Positions 7,357 to 20,968 of a stretch of 64,000 bases of DNA are shown piece by piece. Below the pieces are notes generated by a model. The model made no database searches. It was not told the DNA's origin and saw only the letters and a program-made list of their open reading frames with translations. A program made the translations under genes and the position numbers. The stretch is from NCBI RefSeq assembly GCF_000143845.1, contig NC_014363.1, positions 1,349,186 through 1,413,185 of the forward strand. The letters are read 5' to 3'. The stretch is from Olsenella uli DSM 7084. Its GTDB lineage: Bacteria > Actinomycetota > Coriobacteriia > Coriobacteriales > Atopobiaceae. Numbering within the stretch: the first letter of the stretch is position 1; every line of letters starts with the position of its first letter.

Positions 7357-8540
7357 GTGGCCTTAGATCAGCTTACCTACATTGATCTCTTCTCCGGTGC
7401 AGGCGGTCTCTCCGAGGGGCTTGAGCAAGCTGGATTTCACTCGCTTTTTGCTTCTGAGATTATCCCTAAATACGCCGAAACCTATGCGCACAATCATCCT
7501 AACGCAGAGGTCTGTATTGAAGACATTCGTTCTATTGACCCAGAAGACGTTCGAAAAAACTTGGGCTTGATGTCGGAGACCTCGATTTGGTGGCCGGCGG
7601 CCCACCTTGTCAGGGTTTTTCCATTAACGCTCCAATCAGGTTGCCAGAAGACCCTCGTAACCACCTCTTTCTTGAGTATTTGCGATTCGTTAGAGAATTT
7701 AAACCCAGAGCCATTCTAATAGAGAACGTTCCTGGTCTGGTTTCTTTTGAACACGGAAGCACTCTTCATGCCATATTGGATTCCCTCGCGAATTTAGGAT
7801 ATGAAGCAGATGTTCATATATCGGGGGCACCGTTTTACGGTGCACCTCAGATGCGGTGGCGGACTGTCATCTTGGGTCTGCGTGGTTCTATGATTCCGCA
7901 GTCAGCTTGGCCCGAGCCAACTCGACATGCCCCGATTAGGGCCAATTTCACTACAACATTCGATGGCCATCCAATCGTTAAGCGCCCCTCTCCCGCAGTC
8001 GACGCTCCTTTTACGACTGTAGGAGATGCGATTGGGGACTTGCCGCCTCTAGAGAATGGAGAGAGGGGGATTACCTGTAAAGATTATGCTTCGCCACCTC
8101 AATGCTCTTATCAGGCTGCTATGTGTGTTGGATCCGCTGGCGTTTTTAATCACGAGGCACCGCGGCTTTCGGCGGTCAATATAGAGAGACTTAAATACAT
8201 AAAGCAAGGAGGTAATTGGACGGATATCCCCATCGATCTTCTACCTAAGGGCATGCGACGAGCTCGCAGAACTGATCATACAAAACGCTATGGGCGGCCA
8301 CGGTGGGACGACCTCGCAAGCACTGTCCTTACAAAGTGTGATCCTCACTGGGGTGCTTTCTTCCACCCAGATCAAGCACGAGCGTTTACTGTACGTGAGG
8401 CCGCACGGTTTCAATCTTTTCCAGGCCACTATGTATTCCTCGGGACCCAGGCCGAGCAATATGCCGAAGTCGGAAATGCAGTTCCGCCCATGCTGGCCTG
8501 CTGCGTTGGACAATCGCTAAAGGCTGTACTGGAGGGATGA
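7357..8540 (+). CDS. DNA (cytosine-5) methyltransferase, split by an apparent -1 frameshift
   Basis: A Dcm/HhaI-type C5 methyltransferase and the modification half of a restriction-modification pair. Motif I (DLFSGAGGLSEGL) lies in the first frame; after a six-A run at 7554-7559 the protein continues in the -1 frame with LGLDVGDLDLVAGGPPCQGFS (motif IV, catalytic Cys), ENVPGL (VI), QMRWRTVILG (VIII) and EVGNAVPP (X). The first frame otherwise runs to 7719 with no family resemblance. The junction is A AAA AAC in phase, a classical slippery heptamer. The GTG at 7357 sits 6 bases after GGAGGT; an ATG at 7339 is the alternative. The stop is 3 bases before the endonuclease start. Confidence 0.85.
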
Positions 8541-8543
8541 TGC

Positions 8544-9491
8544 ATGGCCGGGACTATCGTTGATTTCTTTGGTTATAGGGCGAACGACTCAAGCAATGAG
8601 GCTCGCCTCGCAATAGTTCGTCAAGAGTGCCCCTTCATACATGATGCCTGTACAAAGATGCTTGGACGTGATGGCACTCGATCGGGTGTCTGCGCCGTAA
8701 AACAAGTATCTTCGGATCAGCGCATCATCTGCTGCCCCATTCGGCTTTATGCCGATGACTACCAGCTTCTCCGCACTATTTCAAAGATGACCTTCAACTA
8801 CGACTATGGTCTCTATGCGGGGCGAGCAACTGTCAGTCGTTCAATTCGCGAAGGTGGTGCCGTTGCTGTCTTCGACCATCGCTGGGGCGGAGAGCTACGA
8901 TTGCCAAAGAGAAATGGCGTTGGTAACTACTTTGCCGACTGGGTTCTCGCTCTTCTTGATGAGTCTGGCGTCCTGAAGGAGTTCACCTCCATTGAGGTAC
9001 AGACCATAGATACCACAGGCAGCTACTGCAATTCTCGCAATTGCCTCCTTGAGGGGCGGCCTCAGGAACAATCTACCGTTGGTCTGAACTGGGAAAACGT
9101 ATCAAAACGGATCATCCCCCAGCTTGTCTACAAAGGGCAGGTCTTACAACGCGAGGCCCTCTGTCGTTCAGGCCTATGGTTTGTTACCCCACAACCCGTT
9201 TACGACAGGATCGTGGAGCGTTTGGGAGGCATTGAGAACATGGCTTTCGGTTACGCCCCTCAGCCTGGCGCCCTTCATTTCCTACGTTATGATTACGATC
9301 ATGATGTTGTCCCTTTTGAAGGGACGCCTACTAAATTACGTGTCGTAGGCGATGACTGTTCGACCGTAGAGCAGGTGCAAGCAGTCTTTAGCAGAGTCAG
9401 GCTTCCCAAGTCTGGAGTCTATGGTGAAACTCTACGGCAGGCGCTATACGGGGACAGCGATACTTCTTACTGGGCAACGACATTAGGCTAG
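8544..9491 (+). CDS. NotI-family type II restriction endonuclease
   Basis: A 315-residue protein matching the NotI endonuclease family. The N-terminal cysteines (Cys29, Cys36, Cys50, Cys63 or 64, in CPFIHDACTK, GVCAV and ICCPIRLYAD) fit the iron-binding Cys4 site of NotI. The catalytic PD-(D/E)xK-like core is ADWVLALLD (Asp132) plus IEVQTID (Glu151, Gln153), the Glu-x-Gln variant known from NotI. The start follows GGAGGG by 7 bases, and the methyltransferase ends at 8540, so the two are one operon. The recognition site is unknown; GCGGCCGC, the NotI site, does occur here at 11675 and 29627. The endonuclease is intact although its methyltransferase is not. Confidence 0.85.
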   Translation: MAGTIVDFFGYRANDSSNEARLAIVRQECPFIHDACTKMLGRDGTRSGVCAVKQVSSDQRIICCPIRLYADDYQLLRTISKMTFNYDYGLYAGRATVSRSIREGGAVAVFDHRWGGELRLPKRNGVGNYFADWVLALLDESGVLKEFTSIEVQTIDTTGSYCNSRNCLLEGRPQEQSTVGLNWENVSKRIIPQLVYKGQVLQREALCRSGLWFVTPQPVYDRIVERLGGIENMAFGYAPQPGALHFLRYDYDHDVVPFEGTPTKLRVVGDDCSTVEQVQAVFSRVRLPKSGVYGETLRQALYGDSDTSYWATTLG

Positions 9492-9890
9492 TCGTAGCAT
9501 TCTCTGTCTCTAGGCTCTTCACGCTTGCCCTTCTAACGAAGTTGAATTTGTTGAGCTAATCATCCTCCTGAAAAGCCTTGGTCCTTACTTAACTGATCTT
9601 ATGACACACCCGTAGCCTTGTCCCATCGACAGGCTGCGGGCGCTCTTCGTTTTGCGCCCACCCGACTAGGAAGGCGGTCCTCATAGACGGTGACAGTGAT
9701 GGCAGGAAGACGCAGGACGCGGAGTTCGTAGGGCAGCAGGGCCAGCAGGCGCACGGGGACGAGGCCGGGGTGCAGGCAGCAGGCGCACCAGTCCCGCAGG
9801 AAGCGGAGAGACCGGTAGACGGCGAGGCCTCCGGCGGCCAAGTCCTGTCTCTTCGCGGGACCCGTACCGGGGACTTCTCAAAACACTTCT
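9492..9890. other. Gene-poor edge of the accessory island
   Basis: No supported gene. The second copy of the 15-mer TGACACACCCGTAGC is at 9602-9616. Open frames on both strands here have biased, GC-driven composition and match nothing I recognise. Confidence 0.4.
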
Positions 9891-9896
9891 CAGATT

Positions 9897-10389
9897 CACG
9901 CATCCTCCACAGGCATGCCAGGGAGCCCCACCGAGTACGGCATCTGCAAGCCAGGCGAGGACGGGGTGCCACCGACCCCGACAACGACCCGCGCCAGTGG
10001 CTCTGGGGGACGCTGCGCTCAGACGGCGTGCTCGAGGCCTCAGCCTCGTCGGAGGTGGAGTGGTCACGCGGGGTCACGGACCATGGGCGGGCATGCGCCC
10101 AGGCGAGGTACGCGCTCAACTCCTGCGGCGTGGCGGAGCTTGACCTGACGGGGCTGGACCCGTCGTCGCTGACCGACCTCTTCTACTGCTTCTCGACCTG
10201 CTCGGCGCTCACGACCATCTACGTGGACGCCGGCTGGGAGCTGCCAAGCGGCGCGAGCAGCTACGGGTGCTTCTACAACTGCAAGGCGCTCGTGGGAGAG
10301 AACGGAACCGCGTGGGACAGCTCGAAGACGAGCGCCACGTACATGCGGATAGACAGGGACGGGCGGGGTACATCACGGCGAAGGGCTAG
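9897..10389 (+). pseudogene. BspA-like (DUF285-type) surface or phage-tail protein remnant
   Basis: The clear portion reads WLWGTLRSDGVLEASASS, then SCGVAELDLTGLDPSS, SLTDLFYCFSTC and YGCFYNCKALVGENGTAWDSS, the repeated signature of BspA/DUF285 leucine-rich-like proteins. The expected ending (GYITAKG, stop at 10387-10389) is in a different frame from the body, and the N-terminal part is also split between two frames. So it is a decayed 3' fragment. Such domains sit at the end of tail modules in many gut actinobacterial prophages, matching the lysis remnants 0.8 kb downstream. Confidence 0.65.
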
Positions 10390-10393
10390 CGAC

Positions 10394-10816
10394 CTAGCTC
10401 CGGCCTTCTCCGTCCGGCGGCCTGACGTCCCCCGGCCTGCGCAGAGGCGGCAGGTCGGACAGGCCCAGCCGGTCGTAGGCGCCGCGCTTGCCGCTCTCGG
10501 GATGGCGGTCGAGGGCGATAACGGTGATGGAGCCCTCGTCCGGGCCGTAGACCCACCACATGCGCATGGCGCCGCTGTTCCTGTTCTCCAGGTAAGACTG
10601 CCAAACCTTCTGCCCGTAGCGCTTGGTGAGCGCCTCAATGTCGTGGGTCCTGAGGCTCGGGTGGCACGGGTTCTCGGAGAGCAGCCTCATGGCCTTGCCC
10701 CACTTGGCGTAGAGGCGCTCCTCGGCCTTGCTGGCGGTGCCCACGAGATGCTTGGCTTGAAGGTCGTTCCAGAGGCACTCCATCTCGGGGACGCCCATGC
10801 GTATCGCGAACGACAC
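10394..10816 (-). CDS. Putative RelE-like toxin of a toxin-antitoxin pair
   Basis: A 140-residue protein with a RelE-like layout: an N-terminal helical segment (PEMECLWNDLQ) followed by a beta sheet with ALTKRYGQKVWQSYLENR, AMRMWWVYG and ITVIALDRHPE. I recall similar two-gene pairs in Bacteroidota and Actinomycetota, but the assignment rests on gene order and resemblance, not a catalytic motif. The C-terminal 20 residues (RRPGDVRPPDGEGRS) look like read-through into junk, consistent with a fused end at the prophage remnant. It lies 9 bases after its partner gene and is probably co-translated. Confidence 0.6.
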   Translation of the reverse strand: MSFAIRMGVPEMECLWNDLQAKHLVGTASKAEERLYAKWGKAMRLLSENPCHPSLRTHDIEALTKRYGQKVWQSYLENRNSGAMRMWWVYGPDEGSITVIALDRHPESGKRGAYDRLGLSDLPPLRRPGDVRPPDGEGRS

Positions 10817-10825
10817 GGGCCCCTC

Positions 10826-11065
10826 CTAGAAATCGGAGAGGTCGACGGGGGCCGAGACGCGGCCGGCCCTCACGTTAGCCATCGAGACGTCCATCTGGGC
10901 CAGGACGTCTGCCGGCACACCCTCAGGCACGGCGAGCTCACGCGGCTCCAGCACGTAGCAGCCGTTGTCGAACTCCCTCACGTTGTAGTAGTCATATCGG
11001 GCCCCGCGCAGGGTGACGCGGCGCTTGCTGTCCACGCGGGCGTCGTACTCCTTGACTTCCTGCAT
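10826..11065 (-). CDS. Putative antitoxin partner
   Basis: A 79-residue protein beginning with a swapped-hairpin-like strand pattern (KEYDARVDSKRRVTLRG), acidic in the middle (REFDNGCYVLEPREL) and ending in a helical tail with APVDLSDF. This antitoxin-first order, the short gap to the toxin and the small acidic product are typical of type II modules. The DNA-binding fold would presumably autoregulate the pair, though no operator palindrome is obvious upstream. Confidence 0.6.
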   Translation of the reverse strand: MQEVKEYDARVDSKRRVTLRGARYDYYNVREFDNGCYVLEPRELAVPEGVPADVLAQMDVSMANVRAGRVSAPVDLSDF

Positions 11066-11224
11066 GTGCCCCTCCTTCGGTTGCTCACAGCTTTTATAGC
11101 TGGTATGTGGGAAATCCCATAAAGGGAATTGTAATGGCCGGCCTTGGGCACGTCAAGGGTGCTCGTGACGTGGAACGAGGATGGAAGGCGTTGGTAAGAA
11201 CATCATCGAAGGGGGTCTTCTCGC

Positions 11225-11449
11225 ATGGAGTCGGTATTGGTGGCCTTGATCGGCAGTGCCGTCACGCTGGCAGGCGTGGTGGCGAGCAACTCGCGGTCGC
11301 GGGCCGTTACGGAGCAGAAGATCGACGAGCTCACACGCCGCGTGGACAAGCACAACTGCCTCATCGAGCGCACCTACCTGCTCGAGCGGGACACAGCCCT
11401 CCTGCGCAACGATGTCGACGATCTCGAGAGGAAGGTGGGGATCAAATGA
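11225..11449 (+). CDS. Small phage lysis-cassette protein (membrane segment plus coiled coil)
   Basis: A 74-residue protein: one N-terminal membrane helix (VLVALIGSAVTLAGVVA) followed by a charged coiled coil (VTEQKIDELTRRVDKHN ... ALLRNDVDDLERKV). This layout is common just upstream of holins (XhlA-like). The ATG is preceded by AGGGGG, and the TGA overlaps the next gene's ATG (ATGA at 11446-11449), indicating translational coupling. It is the only intact gene of the lysis module. Confidence 0.65.
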   Translation: MESVLVALIGSAVTLAGVVASNSRSRAVTEQKIDELTRRVDKHNCLIERTYLLERDTALLRNDVDDLERKVGIK

Positions 11450-11622
11450 CGGAGTTCCTGACAGGCAACGAGTGGTGGTGGAGGCTGGCACGGACCGTGA
11501 CCCAGGGGGCGCTGGGCGTCGTGGCTGCGAACCTGGACTTGCTGGTGGGCACGGCGGTGGTCGATCCCGCGTGGAAGGCTTTGGTGGTCGCGCTGGTGAT
11601 GGCTGCGATGGGAGAGGTTCGG
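11446..11622 (+). pseudogene. Phage holin fragment
   Basis: MTEFLTGNEWWWRLARTV followed by two hydrophobic stretches (GALGVVAANLDLLVG and WKALVVALVMAAMG) is the start of a small phage holin. Instead of a C-terminus and stop, the frame runs directly into the endolysin, so a short deletion has fused the two genes. Holins permeabilise the membrane to release endolysin; this one is unlikely to work. Confidence 0.55.
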
Positions 11623-11961
11623 ATGGCGAAGAGTAAGCTCTGCACCTACATGCACATCACCAAGAACCATTCGAGCGGCCGCTCGGGATGTCGCGTCTGC
11701 AAGCTCACGCCGCACTACATGGCGGCGAAGTGTCCGGGTAGCAGTGCGCCGACTACTTCGCGGACACGACCCGGCAGACCTCGTCCAACCACTGCAGGCG
11801 TGAACGGCGACGTGGCCATAGGCGTGGACGAGGCAGACCGTGCCTGGACGTCCTCCTCGGCCTGGAACGACAACCGGACTATCACTATTCAATGGCACGG
11901 CGCGGCGGAAGCTCCTGCCTCCAAGCCACAGCCGTGCCGCACTGTTGGAAACTCCTGGTGA
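11623..11961 (+). pseudogene. Endolysin (N-acetylmuramoyl-L-alanine amidase) remnant
   Basis: From an ATG at 11623 with GGGAGAGG upstream the frame reads AKSKLCTYMHITKNHSSGR, an N-terminal segment typical of phage amidase endolysins. A frame jump follows (ADYFADTTRQTSSNHC lies in another frame), then VDEADRAWTSSSAWNDNR, the amidase segment, returns before the protein degrades into a short tail. At least two indels and a 3' truncation make it non-functional. Confidence 0.6.
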
Positions 11962-12240
11962 CCTTGCTGTCTTGTGAGCTTTGAACTTACCTTTCTTTCT
12001 TCTCGACCTTGAGCGCATGAGCGCCACACCCGAAAAGGAGTGTGACGCTCACCACATGAGACTCTTTGAATTCGTCCTTCCTCTTTACCCTAGGACGAAT
12101 TTTAGGACGAACAATCCCGGTTGGAGTGCTTTCTACTGTTGCGTTCCGTCACTTGACAGATACGGTATTTAATGCCTTCCACCTGCTGAAACGTTGCCTT
12201 TCGCTGCGCTCTGGCGCGGGACGTTGCCACCCCCGTCAGA
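11962..12240. other. Intergenic region with AGGACGAA inverted and direct repeats
   Basis: No gene. AATTCGTCCT (12069-12078) and AGGACGAATT (12092-12101) form a perfect 10-bp inverted repeat, and AGGACGAA recurs at 12104-12111. It sits beyond the 3' ends of both flanking genes, so it may be a terminator or the edge of the prophage remnant. Confidence 0.4.
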
Positions 12241-13854
12241 TTATTGCCGATAGTAGCTCAGGAAGTCCGCGAGGTTGGACATGGCTCCGCGCAGCGTCTC
12301 AAGGCGTGGCAGGTAGACGATGCGGAAGTAGCCCGGCGTCTGCCAGTTGAAGCCCTTCCCGTGGACGATGAGCACGTGCTTCTGACGCAAGAGGTCAAGG
12401 GCCATGCGCTCGTCGTCCTGGATGTTGAACTTGGCGGGATCGAGCCGCGGGAAGATGTAGAACGCCGCGTCGGGCTTCACCACGCTCACGCCGTCGATCT
12501 CCTTGAGCGCACTGTAGACGAACTCGCGCTGCTCGAAGACGCGACCGCCGGGAACGATGTAGTCCTTGACGGACTGGTGCCCGCCCAGGGCGGTCTGGAC
12601 GATGGACTGTGCCGGCACGTTCGAGCACAGGCGCATGTTGGAGAGCATGTTGATGCCCATCATGAGGTCACGGCCCAGGTCCTTGTTGCCCGATATCGAC
12701 ATCCAGCCAATGCGGTAGCCCGCGATCATGTGAGACTTGGAGAGCCCGTTGAACGTGATGCAGAACAGGTCCGGTGCCAGGCTCGCGATGGAGACGTGCT
12801 CCTTGCCATCCATGACCAGGCGGTCGTAGATCTCGTCCGCAAGGATTATGAGCTGGTGTTCACGGGCGATCCCGACGATCTCCTGCAGGACCTCGCGTGG
12901 GTACAGGACGCCCGTGGGGTTGTTGGGATTGATGATGACGATGGCCTTGGTGCGGTCCGTGATCTTGGAGCGGATGTCGGTCATGTCGGGAAACCAATGG
13001 GCCTGCTCGTCACAGAGATAGTGGACGGCGGTTCCGCCGGCCAGCGAGGCGCACGCGGTCCACAGCGGGTAGTCGGGACTGGGGATCAGGATCTCGTCGC
13101 CGACGTCGAGAAGGGCGTTCAGCGTGAGCTGGATGAGCTCCGACACGCCGTTGCCCGTGTAGATGTCATCCATCTGCACGTTGGGGATGCCCTTGATCTG
13201 GTCGTACTGCATGATGGCCTTGCGCGCGGAGAACAGCCCGCGGCTGGCGGAGTAGCCCTCGCATTCGGTCAGCTGGCGGCGCATGTCGGACACGACCTCG
13301 TCCGGCGTGCGAAAGCCGAACGGAGCGGGGTTGCCGATGTTGAGCTTGAGGACGTGGACGCCCTCGTCCTCCATGCGGTTTGCCTCGTCGACGACGGGAC
13401 CACGCACGTCGTACAGGACGTTGTCGAGCTTGGAGGACTTCTTGAACTCCCTCATGCGAGCACCCTTCGTCTGAGTTGCCCCGCGCGTGCTGGGCCTGGC
13501 CTTCGCGCCGAGACGGGACTTTGTATCGGCGCCAATCGTGGCGGTACTGCCATTCGGCGCACTGTCACCGACGTCGCTCGACACACCGACGGCAACCGAT
13601 GCGCCAGGGGCACCTGATGCGCCGATCGCCGCCGAGGCCTCCCCCAGAAGCCATTCCTCGCTTACGCCAAGGGCCTGAGCGAGAAACGCGAGGGTCTCCG
13701 CCCGCGGTGTGGTCTTCCCACTCACGTACTGGCTGAGCTGCGACTTTCCCAGCTTCTTGCCTTGGTCCTGCGCCAGGTGGACGAGATCGACCTGCTTGAG
13801 GCCACGCTCCCCCATCCTTTGCGCAAGGCGCTCCGAGAATGTCTGTTGCGGCAT
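12241..13854 (-). CDS. XRE helix-turn-helix fused to an alanine-type aminotransferase
   Basis: A 537-residue two-domain protein. Residues 1-70 are an XRE DNA-binding domain (FSERLAQRMGERGLKQVDL, then KSQLSQYVSGKTTPRAETL and ALGVSEEWLLG). A low-complexity Ala/Gly/Ser/Thr linker of about 60 residues follows. From about 135 onwards it is a complete fold-type I PLP aminotransferase of the AlaA/AlaT group: NPNNPTG, the ILADEIYDRL aspartate, the FNGLSKSHMIAGYRIGW lysine loop and the C-terminal arginine region. The ATG at 13854 is 7 bases from AGGAGG. It probably makes alanine from pyruvate and glutamate while sensing metabolites for transcription control (inference). AAGTTCAAT repeats lie directly upstream. 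Confidence 0.93.
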   Translation of the reverse strand: MPQQTFSERLAQRMGERGLKQVDLVHLAQDQGKKLGKSQLSQYVSGKTTPRAETLAFLAQALGVSEEWLLGEASAAIGASGAPGASVAVGVSSDVGDSAPNGSTATIGADTKSRLGAKARPSTRGATQTKGARMREFKKSSKLDNVLYDVRGPVVDEANRMEDEGVHVLKLNIGNPAPFGFRTPDEVVSDMRRQLTECEGYSASRGLFSARKAIMQYDQIKGIPNVQMDDIYTGNGVSELIQLTLNALLDVGDEILIPSPDYPLWTACASLAGGTAVHYLCDEQAHWFPDMTDIRSKITDRTKAIVIINPNNPTGVLYPREVLQEIVGIAREHQLIILADEIYDRLVMDGKEHVSIASLAPDLFCITFNGLSKSHMIAGYRIGWMSISGNKDLGRDLMMGINMLSNMRLCSNVPAQSIVQTALGGHQSVKDYIVPGGRVFEQREFVYSALKEIDGVSVVKPDAAFYIFPRLDPAKFNIQDDERMALDLLRQKHVLIVHGKGFNWQTPGYFRIVYLPRLETLRGAMSNLADFLSYYRQ

Positions 13855-13867
13855 ACCCATGCCTCCT

Positions 13868-13991
13868 AGTTCAAAGTTCAATTTTATTCAATCACCTAAA
13901 GTTCAATACTCCTTAAGTTCAATGTCACTGAAGTTCAATTTATGAGAACGAGGGTAGCACGGATGTCGAGAAGTTCAAACAGAAAGTTCAG
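13868..13991. promoter_or_regulatory. Cluster of AAGTTCAAT repeats, putative operator of the XRE-aminotransferase
   Basis: Exact AAGTTCAAT copies are at 13874, 13899, 13915 and 13931; the last three are spaced exactly 16 bp apart. Variants (AGTTCAA 13868, ATTCAAT 13886, AAGTTCAAA 13971, AAGTTCAG 13984) extend the series. They occupy the promoter region of the minus-strand fusion gene, and the first copies abut its ribosome site. Cooperative binding by the gene's own XRE domain is the obvious inference. Confidence 0.7.
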
Positions 13992-14194
13992 TTACTGACC
14001 GTGAAGCGACCAACTTCACGCCCGGCACATACTTCCCTGACGCATCCGTGGCGGCATATGCGCCCGTGAGCTGGAAGACCGCACAATGGGCACAAGGAGG
14101 CCAGGGGATCTTGTGGCTCTGATAGATTGTGCGCAACCTATATTGGACACAGTCAACGCAGTGGGCGCCTACCCTGGCAAAGTCCGCTCGTCTT

Positions 14195-17477: not shown

Positions 17478-18557
17478 ATGGCAGAAAGGCTCAACGTCGC
17501 GCTCCTCTTTGGGGGGACCTCGAGCGAGCACGACGTCTCGCTGCGCTCCGCCGCCAACGTGATCGACCTCCTCTCGGAACGCGTCGACCTGACGCTCGTC
17601 GGTATCACGAGGGGTGGCAGCTGGCTGCTCTATGGGGGTGACGCCACCGCCATCGCGGACGACTCCTGGCAGGGTCATGACACCACGCCGGTCTGCGCCG
17701 TGCCCGGCGATGGGGGTGGGCTTTTCGCAGTCGAGGGTGGGTCGCCCGTCCGGCTGCCCATCGACGTGGTCTTCCCCGTACTCCACGGACAGGGCGGGGA
17801 AGACGGCGTGACGCAGGGGCTCCTGGAGTCGTGCCGACTACCCTACGTGGGCTGTGGCGTACTCAGCTCGGCCCTCTGCACGGACAAGGACGCCGCCCAC
17901 CGCATAGTCGCTGCCGCAGGCATCCGCTCACCTCGCTGCGAGGTCGTGCACCCCGGCGACGGGGCCACACGCATCGCCGAGGTCGCGGCCGCCTGCGGCT
18001 ACCCCCTCTTCGTGAAGCCGGCCCGCGGGGGATCCAGCTACGGCGTCAGCAAGGTCGAGGGTCCCGAGCAGCTGGACGAGGCCCTCGGGCTTGCCTTCGG
18101 CTATGACGAAAAGGTCGCCGTCGAGGAGGCCATCGTGGGCACCGAGGTGGGCTGTGCCATCATGGGCGGCGCCGCGGGCGAGCTCGCGATGGGGCTGGTG
18201 GACGAGACGGTCGTCTCGGATGGAGGCTTCTTCCATATCCACCAGGACCACAGCGAGGGTGCGGACGCATCGACGAGAAACTCCTCGACTCGCTGTCCCG
18301 CGCTCCTCCCGCCCGAGGTCATGGAGCGCGTGCGCGAGACGGGAACGGCCGTCTGGCGCGCGCTGGGCTGCTCGGGACTCGCCCGCGTCGACCTCTTCGT
18401 GACCGAGAGGGGCGAGGTGGTCTTCAACGAGGTCAACACCATGCCCGGCCTTACCAGCTACTCGCGCTTCCCGGCCATGATGGCCGCAGCGGGTGCCGAC
18501 ATGGGGGAGGTCCTGGAGCGCCTCGTCCGCAGCGCCGCACGGACGGGCGCCCGCTAG
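17478..18557 (+). CDS. ddl: D-alanine--D-alanine ligase
   Basis: A 359-residue ATP-grasp enzyme joining two D-alanines for peptidoglycan precursors. N-terminal LLFGGTSSEHDVSLRSA, VFPVLHGQGGEDG, the ATP-grasp FVKPARGGSSYGVSKV, EVGCAIMGG, and the C-terminal RVDLFVTERGEVVFNEVNTMPGLTSYS Mg/substrate motif are intact. The ATG follows GGAGAAGG. It converges on the glycyl-radical enzyme, their ends overlapping by 4 bases. D-alanine is also the substrate of the dlt operon at 34.6 kb. Confidence 0.97.
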   Translation: MAERLNVALLFGGTSSEHDVSLRSAANVIDLLSERVDLTLVGITRGGSWLLYGGDATAIADDSWQGHDTTPVCAVPGDGGGLFAVEGGSPVRLPIDVVFPVLHGQGGEDGVTQGLLESCRLPYVGCGVLSSALCTDKDAAHRIVAAAGIRSPRCEVVHPGDGATRIAEVAAACGYPLFVKPARGGSSYGVSKVEGPEQLDEALGLAFGYDEKVAVEEAIVGTEVGCAIMGGAAGELAMGLVDETVVSDGGFFHIHQDHSEGADASTRNSSTRCPALLPPEVMERVRETGTAVWRALGCSGLARVDLFVTERGEVVFNEVNTMPGLTSYSRFPAMMAAAGADMGEVLERLVRSAARTGAR

Positions 18558-20968
18558 AGCGTCTGCTCCGTGCGGCCGATGATGTCATCCTGGGTCGCAC
18601 GGGACAGCACATTGAAGAAGGCCGAATAGCCTGCCACGCGCACGATGAGGTCCTTGTGCGCCTCAGGATGCCTCTGTGCGTCAATCAAGGTATCCCGACT
18701 CACGACGTTGTACTGGACGTGGTAGCCATGCAGGCGGTTGAAGAAGGTCTGCAGCATCAGCTCGAGCTTCTGCCTGTTCTCCTCGCGGGAGAGCATGGTG
18801 GGGGTCAGCTTCTGGTTGAGCAGCACGCCACCCGTGATCTTCTCGGTCGGAAGCTTGGAGACGGACTTGAAGACGGCCGTGGGCCCCTGCTTGTCGCAGT
18901 TGTGCGCCGGGCTGCAGCCCTCGGCTAGCGGCTCGCGGGCATGGCGCCCGTCCGGCGTGGCCATGGTTCCCATGCCCTGCCCCACGTTCGCGCTGATGGA
19001 ACTGGTCCCGGCATAGCGGATGCCCCCTATGGGGCCACGGCCGAAGCGGGTGCTGGGGTACTTTGCGACCTCCTCGATATAGGGCTCGTACGACTCGACT
19101 GCCAGGTCGTCGACATAGTCGATGTCGTTGCCGTACTTGGGGGCCTCGTCGATGAGCAGCCGCTGGACACGCTGGCCCTCGGGACTCTGAAAGTCGTCGA
19201 GGAGGGCGTCCCACAGCTGCTGGCGACCGATCTTCTCCTCCTCGAAGACGAGCTTCTTGATTGCCGCCAGGGAGTCGGCCATGTTGGCGATGCCCACCTG
19301 CAGTCCGCTGATGAAGTCGTAGACGGCGCCGCCCTCCTTGATGGTCTTGCCGCGCGCGATGCAGTCGTCCGTGAGCGCGGAGCAGAGCACGTCGGGCACG
19401 TCACGCTCCGAGGCCTTGTCGATGGCGTTCTCCACGATCACGGAGTAGCGGCACATCTCGCGGATGGTCTTGTCCCAGGCCTCGGCGAGCTCCTCGTAGC
19501 TCTCCATCTCGGTGAAGTGGCCGCAGTCCTTGGTGAAGCGCTTGCCACTCGTGAGGTCGACCCCCCCGTTCATGGTACAGAGCAGCAGGCGCGGGAAGTT
19601 GAGGTAGCTCATGCCGGTGCAGCGGTAGCCCCACTTGCCCGGCACGGCGCACTCCACGCAGCCGATGGCCGAGTAGTCGTAGGCGTCCTCCTCAGACACG
19701 CCCCAGCTGATGAAGGAGGGGATGATGACCTCGTCGTTGTTGAGGGCGGGCATGCCAAAGCCAAGCCGCATGACCTCGACGCACTCGTCCAGGAAGCGCC
19801 TGTCGATGTTGGCGTGGTAGCGCACGGTGAGGTTGGGTTGGGTGAGGCGGGTCTGTGCCACGGAGCGCAGCACCAGGAAGGAGAGCTCGTTGACGGCATC
19901 GCGCCCATCCGTGGTCTGGCCGCCGATGGTGACGTTCTGGTACATGGGCGAGCCAGCTGAGGAGAGCGTGTGTGCCTGGCTGCGGATCTTCTGCACGGTG
20001 AGGGTCTTGATCCAGAGGTTGCAGAGAAGCTCGAGCGCCTCGTCCTCGCTTATCCTGCCGCCGTCGAGGTCCGCCTTGTAGTAGGGGTACAGGTACTGGT
20101 CGAAGCGGCCGAAGGAGAGCGAGTGGCCGTTTGACTCGATCTGCAGGAGCACCTGGGAGAACCAGACGGCCTGCATGGCCTCGCGGAAGGAGGAGGCGGG
20201 CTCGTAGGGCACCTTGGCACAGATGGCGCCCATGCGCTCGAGCTCGGCCCTGCGCGCGGGATCGGACTCGCGGGACGCAAGGTCGACGGCAAGGGCAGAG
20301 TAGCGCAGGGAGAAGCGGCGGACCGCGTCGATCACGACGAGTACGGCCTTGTAGAAGGCGTACTTGTCGACGGAGTCGGGATCCGTGAGGTCGAGAGCGG
20401 CCTTGGCGCGGCGGGCGCGCTCCTCGTAGCCGCGCAGGCCCTCGCGCAGCATGCGCGCATGGTTGATGGCGAGGTGCGCGTCGCCGGCGTTGAGCTTGCC
20501 CTCCATGCCGAAGAGACCCGTCTCCATGAAGACGGAGACCTCGTCGGGGAGAAGCGCCATGCCGCGGTCGCGCAGGGTGTTGTTCTCCCAGAAGGGCGCG
20601 ATGCCGCGGATGCGCCGCTTGTCCTCGTCGGTGATGTAGAACACGTCGCCGTCGCGCTTCTCGAACGAGTCCAGCTCGTCGAGCACGAAGCCCAAGGTGT
20701 ACTCGGGGAAGACCGGCGCGTTGCAGTTCTTGGTGGCCTGGTTGCCGGCGAGGAGGGTCTTGTCCTCGATGTAGATGCTCATGTCGTCGAGGATGTGCGC
20801 GAGGGCAAGCGCGCGACGCATGACGGGGGGCTGGTTCTGCGTCTGGCGGTAGGACTCGGTGCAGAGCACGGCGCGCTCGGCGTCGACGAACGGCCGCTCG
20901 TCGAGGACCTCCTCGCGGAAGGCCCGCATGCGTGCGGTCAATGCCCCGAAGTGCTCCTTGTTCTCCAT
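18554..20968 (-). CDS. Glycyl-radical enzyme, YbiW/PflD-like
   Basis: An 804-residue oxygen-sensitive enzyme of the pyruvate formate-lyase superfamily. The catalytic thiyl site is AIGCVECAVPGKWGYRCTGM, and the C-terminal glycyl-radical loop RVAGYSAFF has Gly780. The single Cys followed by V-E (GCVE) marks the eliminating branch, not true PFL (which has Cys-Cys). Similarity is closest to E. coli YbiW/PflF, which I recall being reported to open 1,5-anhydrohexitol 6-phosphates; whether this protein shares that substrate is unproven. The activase is divergent at 21227 and a DeoR regulator follows it. Confidence 0.93.
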   Translation of the reverse strand: MENKEHFGALTARMRAFREEVLDERPFVDAERAVLCTESYRQTQNQPPVMRRALALAHILDDMSIYIEDKTLLAGNQATKNCNAPVFPEYTLGFVLDELDSFEKRDGDVFYITDEDKRRIRGIAPFWENNTLRDRGMALLPDEVSVFMETGLFGMEGKLNAGDAHLAINHARMLREGLRGYEERARRAKAALDLTDPDSVDKYAFYKAVLVVIDAVRRFSLRYSALAVDLASRESDPARRAELERMGAICAKVPYEPASSFREAMQAVWFSQVLLQIESNGHSLSFGRFDQYLYPYYKADLDGGRISEDEALELLCNLWIKTLTVQKIRSQAHTLSSAGSPMYQNVTIGGQTTDGRDAVNELSFLVLRSVAQTRLTQPNLTVRYHANIDRRFLDECVEVMRLGFGMPALNNDEVIIPSFISWGVSEEDAYDYSAIGCVECAVPGKWGYRCTGMSYLNFPRLLLCTMNGGVDLTSGKRFTKDCGHFTEMESYEELAEAWDKTIREMCRYSVIVENAIDKASERDVPDVLCSALTDDCIARGKTIKEGGAVYDFISGLQVGIANMADSLAAIKKLVFEEEKIGRQQLWDALLDDFQSPEGQRVQRLLIDEAPKYGNDIDYVDDLAVESYEPYIEEVAKYPSTRFGRGPIGGIRYAGTSSISANVGQGMGTMATPDGRHAREPLAEGCSPAHNCDKQGPTAVFKSVSKLPTEKITGGVLLNQKLTPTMLSREENRQKLELMLQTFFNRLHGYHVQYNVVSRDTLIDAQRHPEAHKDLIVRVAGYSAFFNVLSRATQDDIIGRTEQTL

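Follow-up and report, generated by a model that had tools for sequence, protein, structure and literature searches.

An alanine transaminase fused to an XRE domain in Olsenella uli and its relatives, with a predicted role in regulating its own gene

BirA and PutA are trigger enzymes that carry their own helix-turn-helix, so that a single polypeptide works as a metabolic enzyme and also regulates genes of the pathway to which it belongs. In the MocR, GabR and PdxR regulators, a helix-turn-helix is tethered to a class I aminotransferase fold, direct and inverted operator boxes are spaced so as to face the same side of the DNA, and autoregulation is common (PMC5320631). The free alanine transaminase AlaA depends for catalysis and substrate choice on Tyr15, Arg18, Tyr68, Tyr129, Tyr210, Lys240, Tyr333 and Arg378, and its N-terminal arm reaches into the active site and plugs it, bringing in Tyr15 and Arg18 (PMC4094517). 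The gene of the regulator AerR has an internal start with a ribosome-binding site within its coding region, from which long and short isoforms arise; AerR itself is a B12-based photoreceptor that works through CrtJ, and production of the short form also involves an offset promoter (PMC6199135).

The stretch of DNA analysed here, a window of 64,000 nucleotides from the Olsenella uli DSM 7084 genome, encodes a protein that shares features with all of these systems and differs from each. Similar to the MocR, GabR and PdxR regulators, it has a helix-turn-helix and a class I aminotransferase fold connected by a flexible linker, and its putative operator boxes tend to one face of the DNA. However, the heads of those regulators are GntR winged helices, while the head here is an XRE domain, so the fusion is not a MocR. 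Its enzyme part is moreover an AlaA ortholog with every catalytic residue, its nearest relative is free AlaA, inverted site pairs were found at no gene other than its own, and the fusions keep an internal start. E. coli AlaA (PDB 4cvq, PMC4094517) equals the enzyme part of the fusion in length, shows 58% identity to it by structural match and shares every catalytic and plug residue, but possesses neither a DNA-binding domain nor an operator array. AerR is the closest precedent that we found for two isoforms made through an internal start in a regulator gene, although the short form here would be a complete enzyme. XRE-AlaA can be read, like BirA and PutA, as enzyme and regulator in one polypeptide, with a different enzyme, a different DNA-binding domain and a predicted isoform free of XRE that comes from the internal start. 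A full-text search of open-licence papers found no description of an XRE-AlaA fusion.

The xre-alaA gene lies on the minus strand (window positions 12241-13854) and was delimited by its open reading frame, Pfam, the alignment to AlaA and its orthologs. A single reading frame starting with ATG (13854 to 12241) encodes a full-length product of 537 aa, preceded by the Shine-Dalgarno sequence AGGAGG at 13862-13867 (minus strand). An in-frame ATG at 13860 was rejected as the preferred start, being too near this AGGAGG. Residues 1-74 (13633-13854, minus strand) form the XRE helix-turn-helix domain, which matches Pfam HTH_3 above the cut-off (E 1.8e-7) and is modelled with a pLDDT of about 95. The model places helices at residues 6-17, 21-30, 37-45, 52-62 and 66-70, the five helices of an HTH_3-type domain. 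In Pfam the N-terminal domain matches XRE models only and therefore lacks the GntR winged helix of MocR, which bears out the original prediction that the architecture is a different one. Residues 75-131 (13462-13632, minus strand) correspond to a tether that is predicted to be disordered, with pLDDT below 50 over residues 74-131; in orthologs it spans 11-92 aa and its sequence is unalignable.

The enzyme follows the tether in the predicted structure, and the best matches listed by a fold search with the full model were all aminotransferases. Pfam identified the enzyme part as a class I aminotransferase (Aminotran_1_2, E 3.3e-51), and over residues 134-537 its alignment with E. coli AlaA 4cvq is free of gaps (E 1.4e-161). 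The presence of an XRE domain and a full AlaA-type aminotransferase in one frame was thus confirmed. The numbering offset from E. coli AlaA to the fusion is a constant 133, so that Y15, R18, Y68, Y129, Y210, K240, Y333 and R378 of AlaA correspond to Y148, R151, Y201, Y262, Y343, K373, Y466 and R511, with K373 as the PLP lysine. All eight residues are invariant across 25 aligned fusions, as are the plug residues. Because every catalytic residue of AlaA is retained in these 25 fusions, the enzyme part looks competent as an AlaA-type alanine transaminase.

Just upstream of the gene we found an array of putative operator sites (13867-13992, minus strand), identified by a scan for exact and degenerate motifs and by conservation in orthologs. 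It comprises six exact GTTCAA cores, which read TTGAAC on the gene strand (plus-strand starts 13869, 13876, 13901, 13917, 13933 and 13973), and two degenerate copies (13887 and 13986), in agreement with the at least eight sites originally proposed. The 64-kb window contains four exact copies of AAGTTCAAT, where 0.18 would be expected, and all four lie within 13874-13939. Three sites are exactly 16 bp apart, as had been noted. A candidate extended -10, TGCTACCCT, is located at 13951-13959 (minus strand) with sites on both sides, a layout of -10 and sites that is conserved. The distal TTGAAC (13978-13973), 16 nt upstream of this candidate, could serve as a -35-like hexamer. We infer the position of the candidate promoter from conservation, since a generic strict sigma-70 scan of this promoter region found no promoter.

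Orthologous fusions were present in most relatives of the same order and also in Clostridia, and the consensus site of these loci is AAATTGAACTT. The original prediction had named in advance the absence of the repeats upstream of orthologous fusions as the outcome that would speak against it; the survey of related genomes instead found AATTGAAC upstream of 61 of the 63 fused loci in Coriobacteriia and Clostridia, a set that includes one truncated contig without upstream DNA, versus 0 of 60 upstream regions of unfused alaA. Near-matches to the site upstream of fusions numbered 235, compared with 8.9 in dinucleotide shuffles. Because fused and unfused upstream regions differ in this way, the comparison indicates a genuine and conserved array that goes together with the XRE domain. 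An extended -10 (TGNTANNNT) was found in 45 loci, in 39 of which sites flank it on both sides, and on the downstream side of the -10 the sites continue across the 5′ leader as far as the Shine-Dalgarno sequence. The start-proximal site has one orientation in 57 of 62 loci. It usually lies 10-30 nt before the start and touches the Shine-Dalgarno sequence (in the window, 13862-13882), and orientation is fixed there and not elsewhere.

Two groups of loci merit separate mention. One Clostridia genome possesses two XRE-AlaA copies, L064 (G447:C184) and L141 (G447:C149), both with TTGAAC sites upstream. In a Collinsella genome recorded as Collinsella intestinalis (L052 and L083), a run of N interrupts the XRE region, and operator sites and a partial XRE domain are present.

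The sites occur in both orientations and at many distances, which cluster near 11-13, 19-23, 31-33, 41-44 and 51-54 bp. Phasing was measured from site centres, with an offset scan, in 56 representatives whose upstream regions are less than 70% identical. At a period of 10.5 bp, R was 0.319 over 388 site pairs, and none of 3000 random site jitters was as strong (maximum 0.172). The 10.5-bp phasing was present separately in Coriobacteriia and in Clostridia, held for each orientation pair and was stronger for better-matching sites. Since the distances between sites are phased at 10.5 bp, the sites tend, as far as their sequence positions indicate, to share one face of the DNA helix. The 16-bp step seen in the window was rejected as a general rule: only 3 of 113 pairs of same-strand neighbours are 16 bp apart, two of them in the window. 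Sixteen bp corresponds to 1.5 helical turns and is out of phase, so the steps of the window are an exception to the ortholog pattern, in which spacing is variable but helically phased.

Further arrays, a search for which had also been proposed, were looked for in whole genomes. In the 2.05-Mb genome the 16-bp tandem site pair had no second occurrence, even when 3 mismatches were allowed. Across 60 whole genomes of relatives, inverted pairs of the form AGTTCAAT-N(0-30)-ATTGAACT were detected at nine loci, all of them at the promoter of the fusion, and the reversed control pair was absent from the same 60 genomes. As every inverted pair falls at this promoter, the pattern favours an autoregulator that serves its own gene alone, while single sites or other pair forms may exist elsewhere. 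A regulon beyond the own gene was considered and rejected, the direct-repeat pairs found elsewhere mostly resembling coding-sequence or A+T-rich background (very many of them in one genome, G018). By comparative evidence, the fusion thus has the conserved operator at a pathway gene that is typical of trigger enzymes, the pathway gene here being its own.

At the junction of tether and enzyme, an in-frame ATG or GTG was present in 61 of the 63 fusions, in 56 of these 61 exactly at the start of free AlaA and in the remainder one or two codons away. In the window this codon is Met134, from which free AlaA is predicted as a second product (12241-13455, minus strand) on the basis of start codon conservation and nucleotide-level selection. 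The Shine-Dalgarno-like AAGGGTG before it (13461-13467, minus strand) is a weak copy, with -3.9 kcal/mol. Over the orthologs, pairing with the 16S tail before the internal start has a mean of -7.15 kcal/mol. The 939 remaining internal ATGs in these genes give -1.77 kcal/mol (p 3e-30), and the true start codons of unfused alaA give -6.46 kcal/mol. The Shine-Dalgarno core occurs in all three reading frames, and the residues that it encodes vary (RST, KG, KE, EA, GG, GD). Synonymous sequences drawn with the codon usage of each gene gave -3.89 +/- 0.23 against an observed -7.32, which none of 150 reached, and of the 38 arginine codons at the internal Shine-Dalgarno sequence 24 are AGG, versus 5.5% in the enzyme part. 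The internal start codon and its Shine-Dalgarno sequence thus bear the mark of nucleotide-level selection. Because this Shine-Dalgarno sequence persists in all frames and beyond the synonymous null while the tether is unalignable, these data indicate that selection acts on the RNA and not on the protein.

Since a conserved start codon with a nucleotide-selected Shine-Dalgarno sequence sits at the junction, the gene probably makes two proteins, the XRE-AlaA autoregulator and free AlaA. The predicted short product is not universal among fusions, because in four loci (L009, L019, L080 and L144) either the internal start or its Shine-Dalgarno sequence is missing and several Lactococcus fusions possess the start codon with little or no Shine-Dalgarno sequence.

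The XRE domain was lost in two members of the fused clade, L014 from the family of the window organism and L081 from the Lachnospiraceae, and both kept the enzyme. The operator array is absent in both: in L081 no core was found in 700 bp, and L014 has one isolated core 331 nt upstream. The tree of the enzyme domain requires three changes for the window-type fusion, consistent with a single gain and the two losses just described. Lactococcus harbours a different XRE domain on AlaA, nested among free streptococcal AlaA in the tree, and the palindrome CTAACGTTAG was present in 10 of 10 Lactococcus fused loci versus 0 of 99 unfused loci. Two rumen Clostridia (L097 and L100) carry a third type of XRE domain on AlaA, with AGTTTAAACTTT-type repeats around the promoter. 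Because Lactococcus and the rumen Clostridia combine other XRE domains with other repeats, the XRE-AlaA design probably arose on at least three separate occasions, with a distinct promoter repeat in each case. In the Lactococcus-type fusions L109 and L171-L180, a further CTAACG half-site accompanies CTAACGTTAG and overlaps the -10 and Shine-Dalgarno region.

An AlaA with an XRE head that regulates itself is strongly supported by this comparative genomic evidence, because the sites are conserved and overlap the promoter, no other inverted-pair target was found, the array is lost together with the XRE domain, and the design was probably invented repeatedly and independently. This part of the original prediction, a trigger enzyme that acts on its own gene, therefore stands; repression would be the sign of the regulation, possibly with the proposed pyruvate/alanine/PLP state as signal, and the single protein that had been assumed is probably to be replaced by two, as the internal start predicts an XRE-free AlaA. 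It is likely that the locus is a one-gene feedback module in which XRE-AlaA represses its own promoter and the internal start also yields free AlaA. In the proposed mechanism, dimers of full-length AlaA would present two XRE heads on disordered tethers, and these heads would bind AAATTGAACTT sites on one helix face, on either side of the -10 and within the 5′ leader, so that the promoter would be repressed. The flexible tether would account for the tolerance of both orientations and many distances, and the stiffness of DNA over short ranges for the helical phasing. Because the tether attaches to the N-terminal arm that forms the active-site plug, the ligand state might reach the DNA-binding heads, and occupancy of the active site or its PLP/PMP state (alanine, glutamate, pyruvate) would most likely tune DNA binding. 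The internal start would supply free enzyme from the same mRNA, and mixed dimers of long and short chains would carry fewer DNA-binding heads, which would set the feedback gain. We lean, with some reserve, towards the complete scheme, in which XRE-AlaA represses through helically phased sites, a selected internal start makes free AlaA, mixed dimers set the feedback gain, and AlaA acquired different XRE domains on at least three occasions, a new repeat arising with each. The copy in the window counts against the feedback module, being atypical in its steps of 1.5 turns and its weak internal Shine-Dalgarno sequence, and so do the negative strict sigma-70 scan and the fusions that have no internal start or a poor Shine-Dalgarno sequence before it.

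Other explanations were considered. The autoregulator could be the single product, with the internal ATG and Shine-Dalgarno sequence as a relic of a captured free alaA gene. That the internal start lies exactly where free AlaA begins and that a few fusions have none would suit a relic, but a Shine-Dalgarno sequence kept across two phyla, in a tether that is otherwise unalignable, and coded by differing residues in three frames with rare AGG codons, far above the synonymous null, makes this unlikely. The full-length protein might also activate its own gene, or be a sensor whose enzyme activity is incidental, given that sites also occur upstream of the -10, where activators bind, and vary in orientation and distance. 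We regard this as distinctly improbable: the sites continue downstream of the -10 through the leader to the Shine-Dalgarno sequence, a placement that suits a repressor, the active site has all its residues and does not vary, and two lineages retained the enzyme after losing the XRE domain.

It is very doubtful that the repeats work at the level of the mRNA leader, or are bound by another regulator, while the XRE domain has a different role. The sites do reach into the 5′ leader up to the Shine-Dalgarno sequence, and the start-proximal one has its preferred orientation, but as a whole they occur in both orientations and follow the turns of the helix. The array, moreover, disappears along with the XRE domain, fusions that carry a different XRE domain show different repeats, and no other promoter in the 60 genomes carries the inverted pairs.

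The genes around the fusion in the window are not common to other fused loci, most of which were available with only 1.5 kb of flank. A D-alanine--D-alanine ligase (Ddl, Pfam Dala_Dala_lig) is located at 17478-18557 (plus strand), 3.6 kb from the alanine transaminase, a proximity not seen in other fused loci. It is followed by a pyruvate formate-lyase-like glycyl radical enzyme (18554-20968, minus strand), whose glycine radical domain is intact by Pfam. On the other side, the window contains a C-5 cytosine DNA methyltransferase (7587-9491, plus strand) and then an unmatched ORF of 315 aa. The region from about 9500 to 12000 has overlapping ORFs without clear genes and may represent the remains of a mobile element.

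The fusion would represent a second route, apart from that of MocR, from an aminotransferase to a transcription factor, apparently with the enzyme kept active. Enzyme-regulator fusions of this kind probably evolved repeatedly, each with its own promoter repeat. In many gut bacteria, one gene appears to encode both an enzyme and the switch that controls it, and this arrangement may explain the control of alanine synthesis in Coriobacteriia and some Clostridia.
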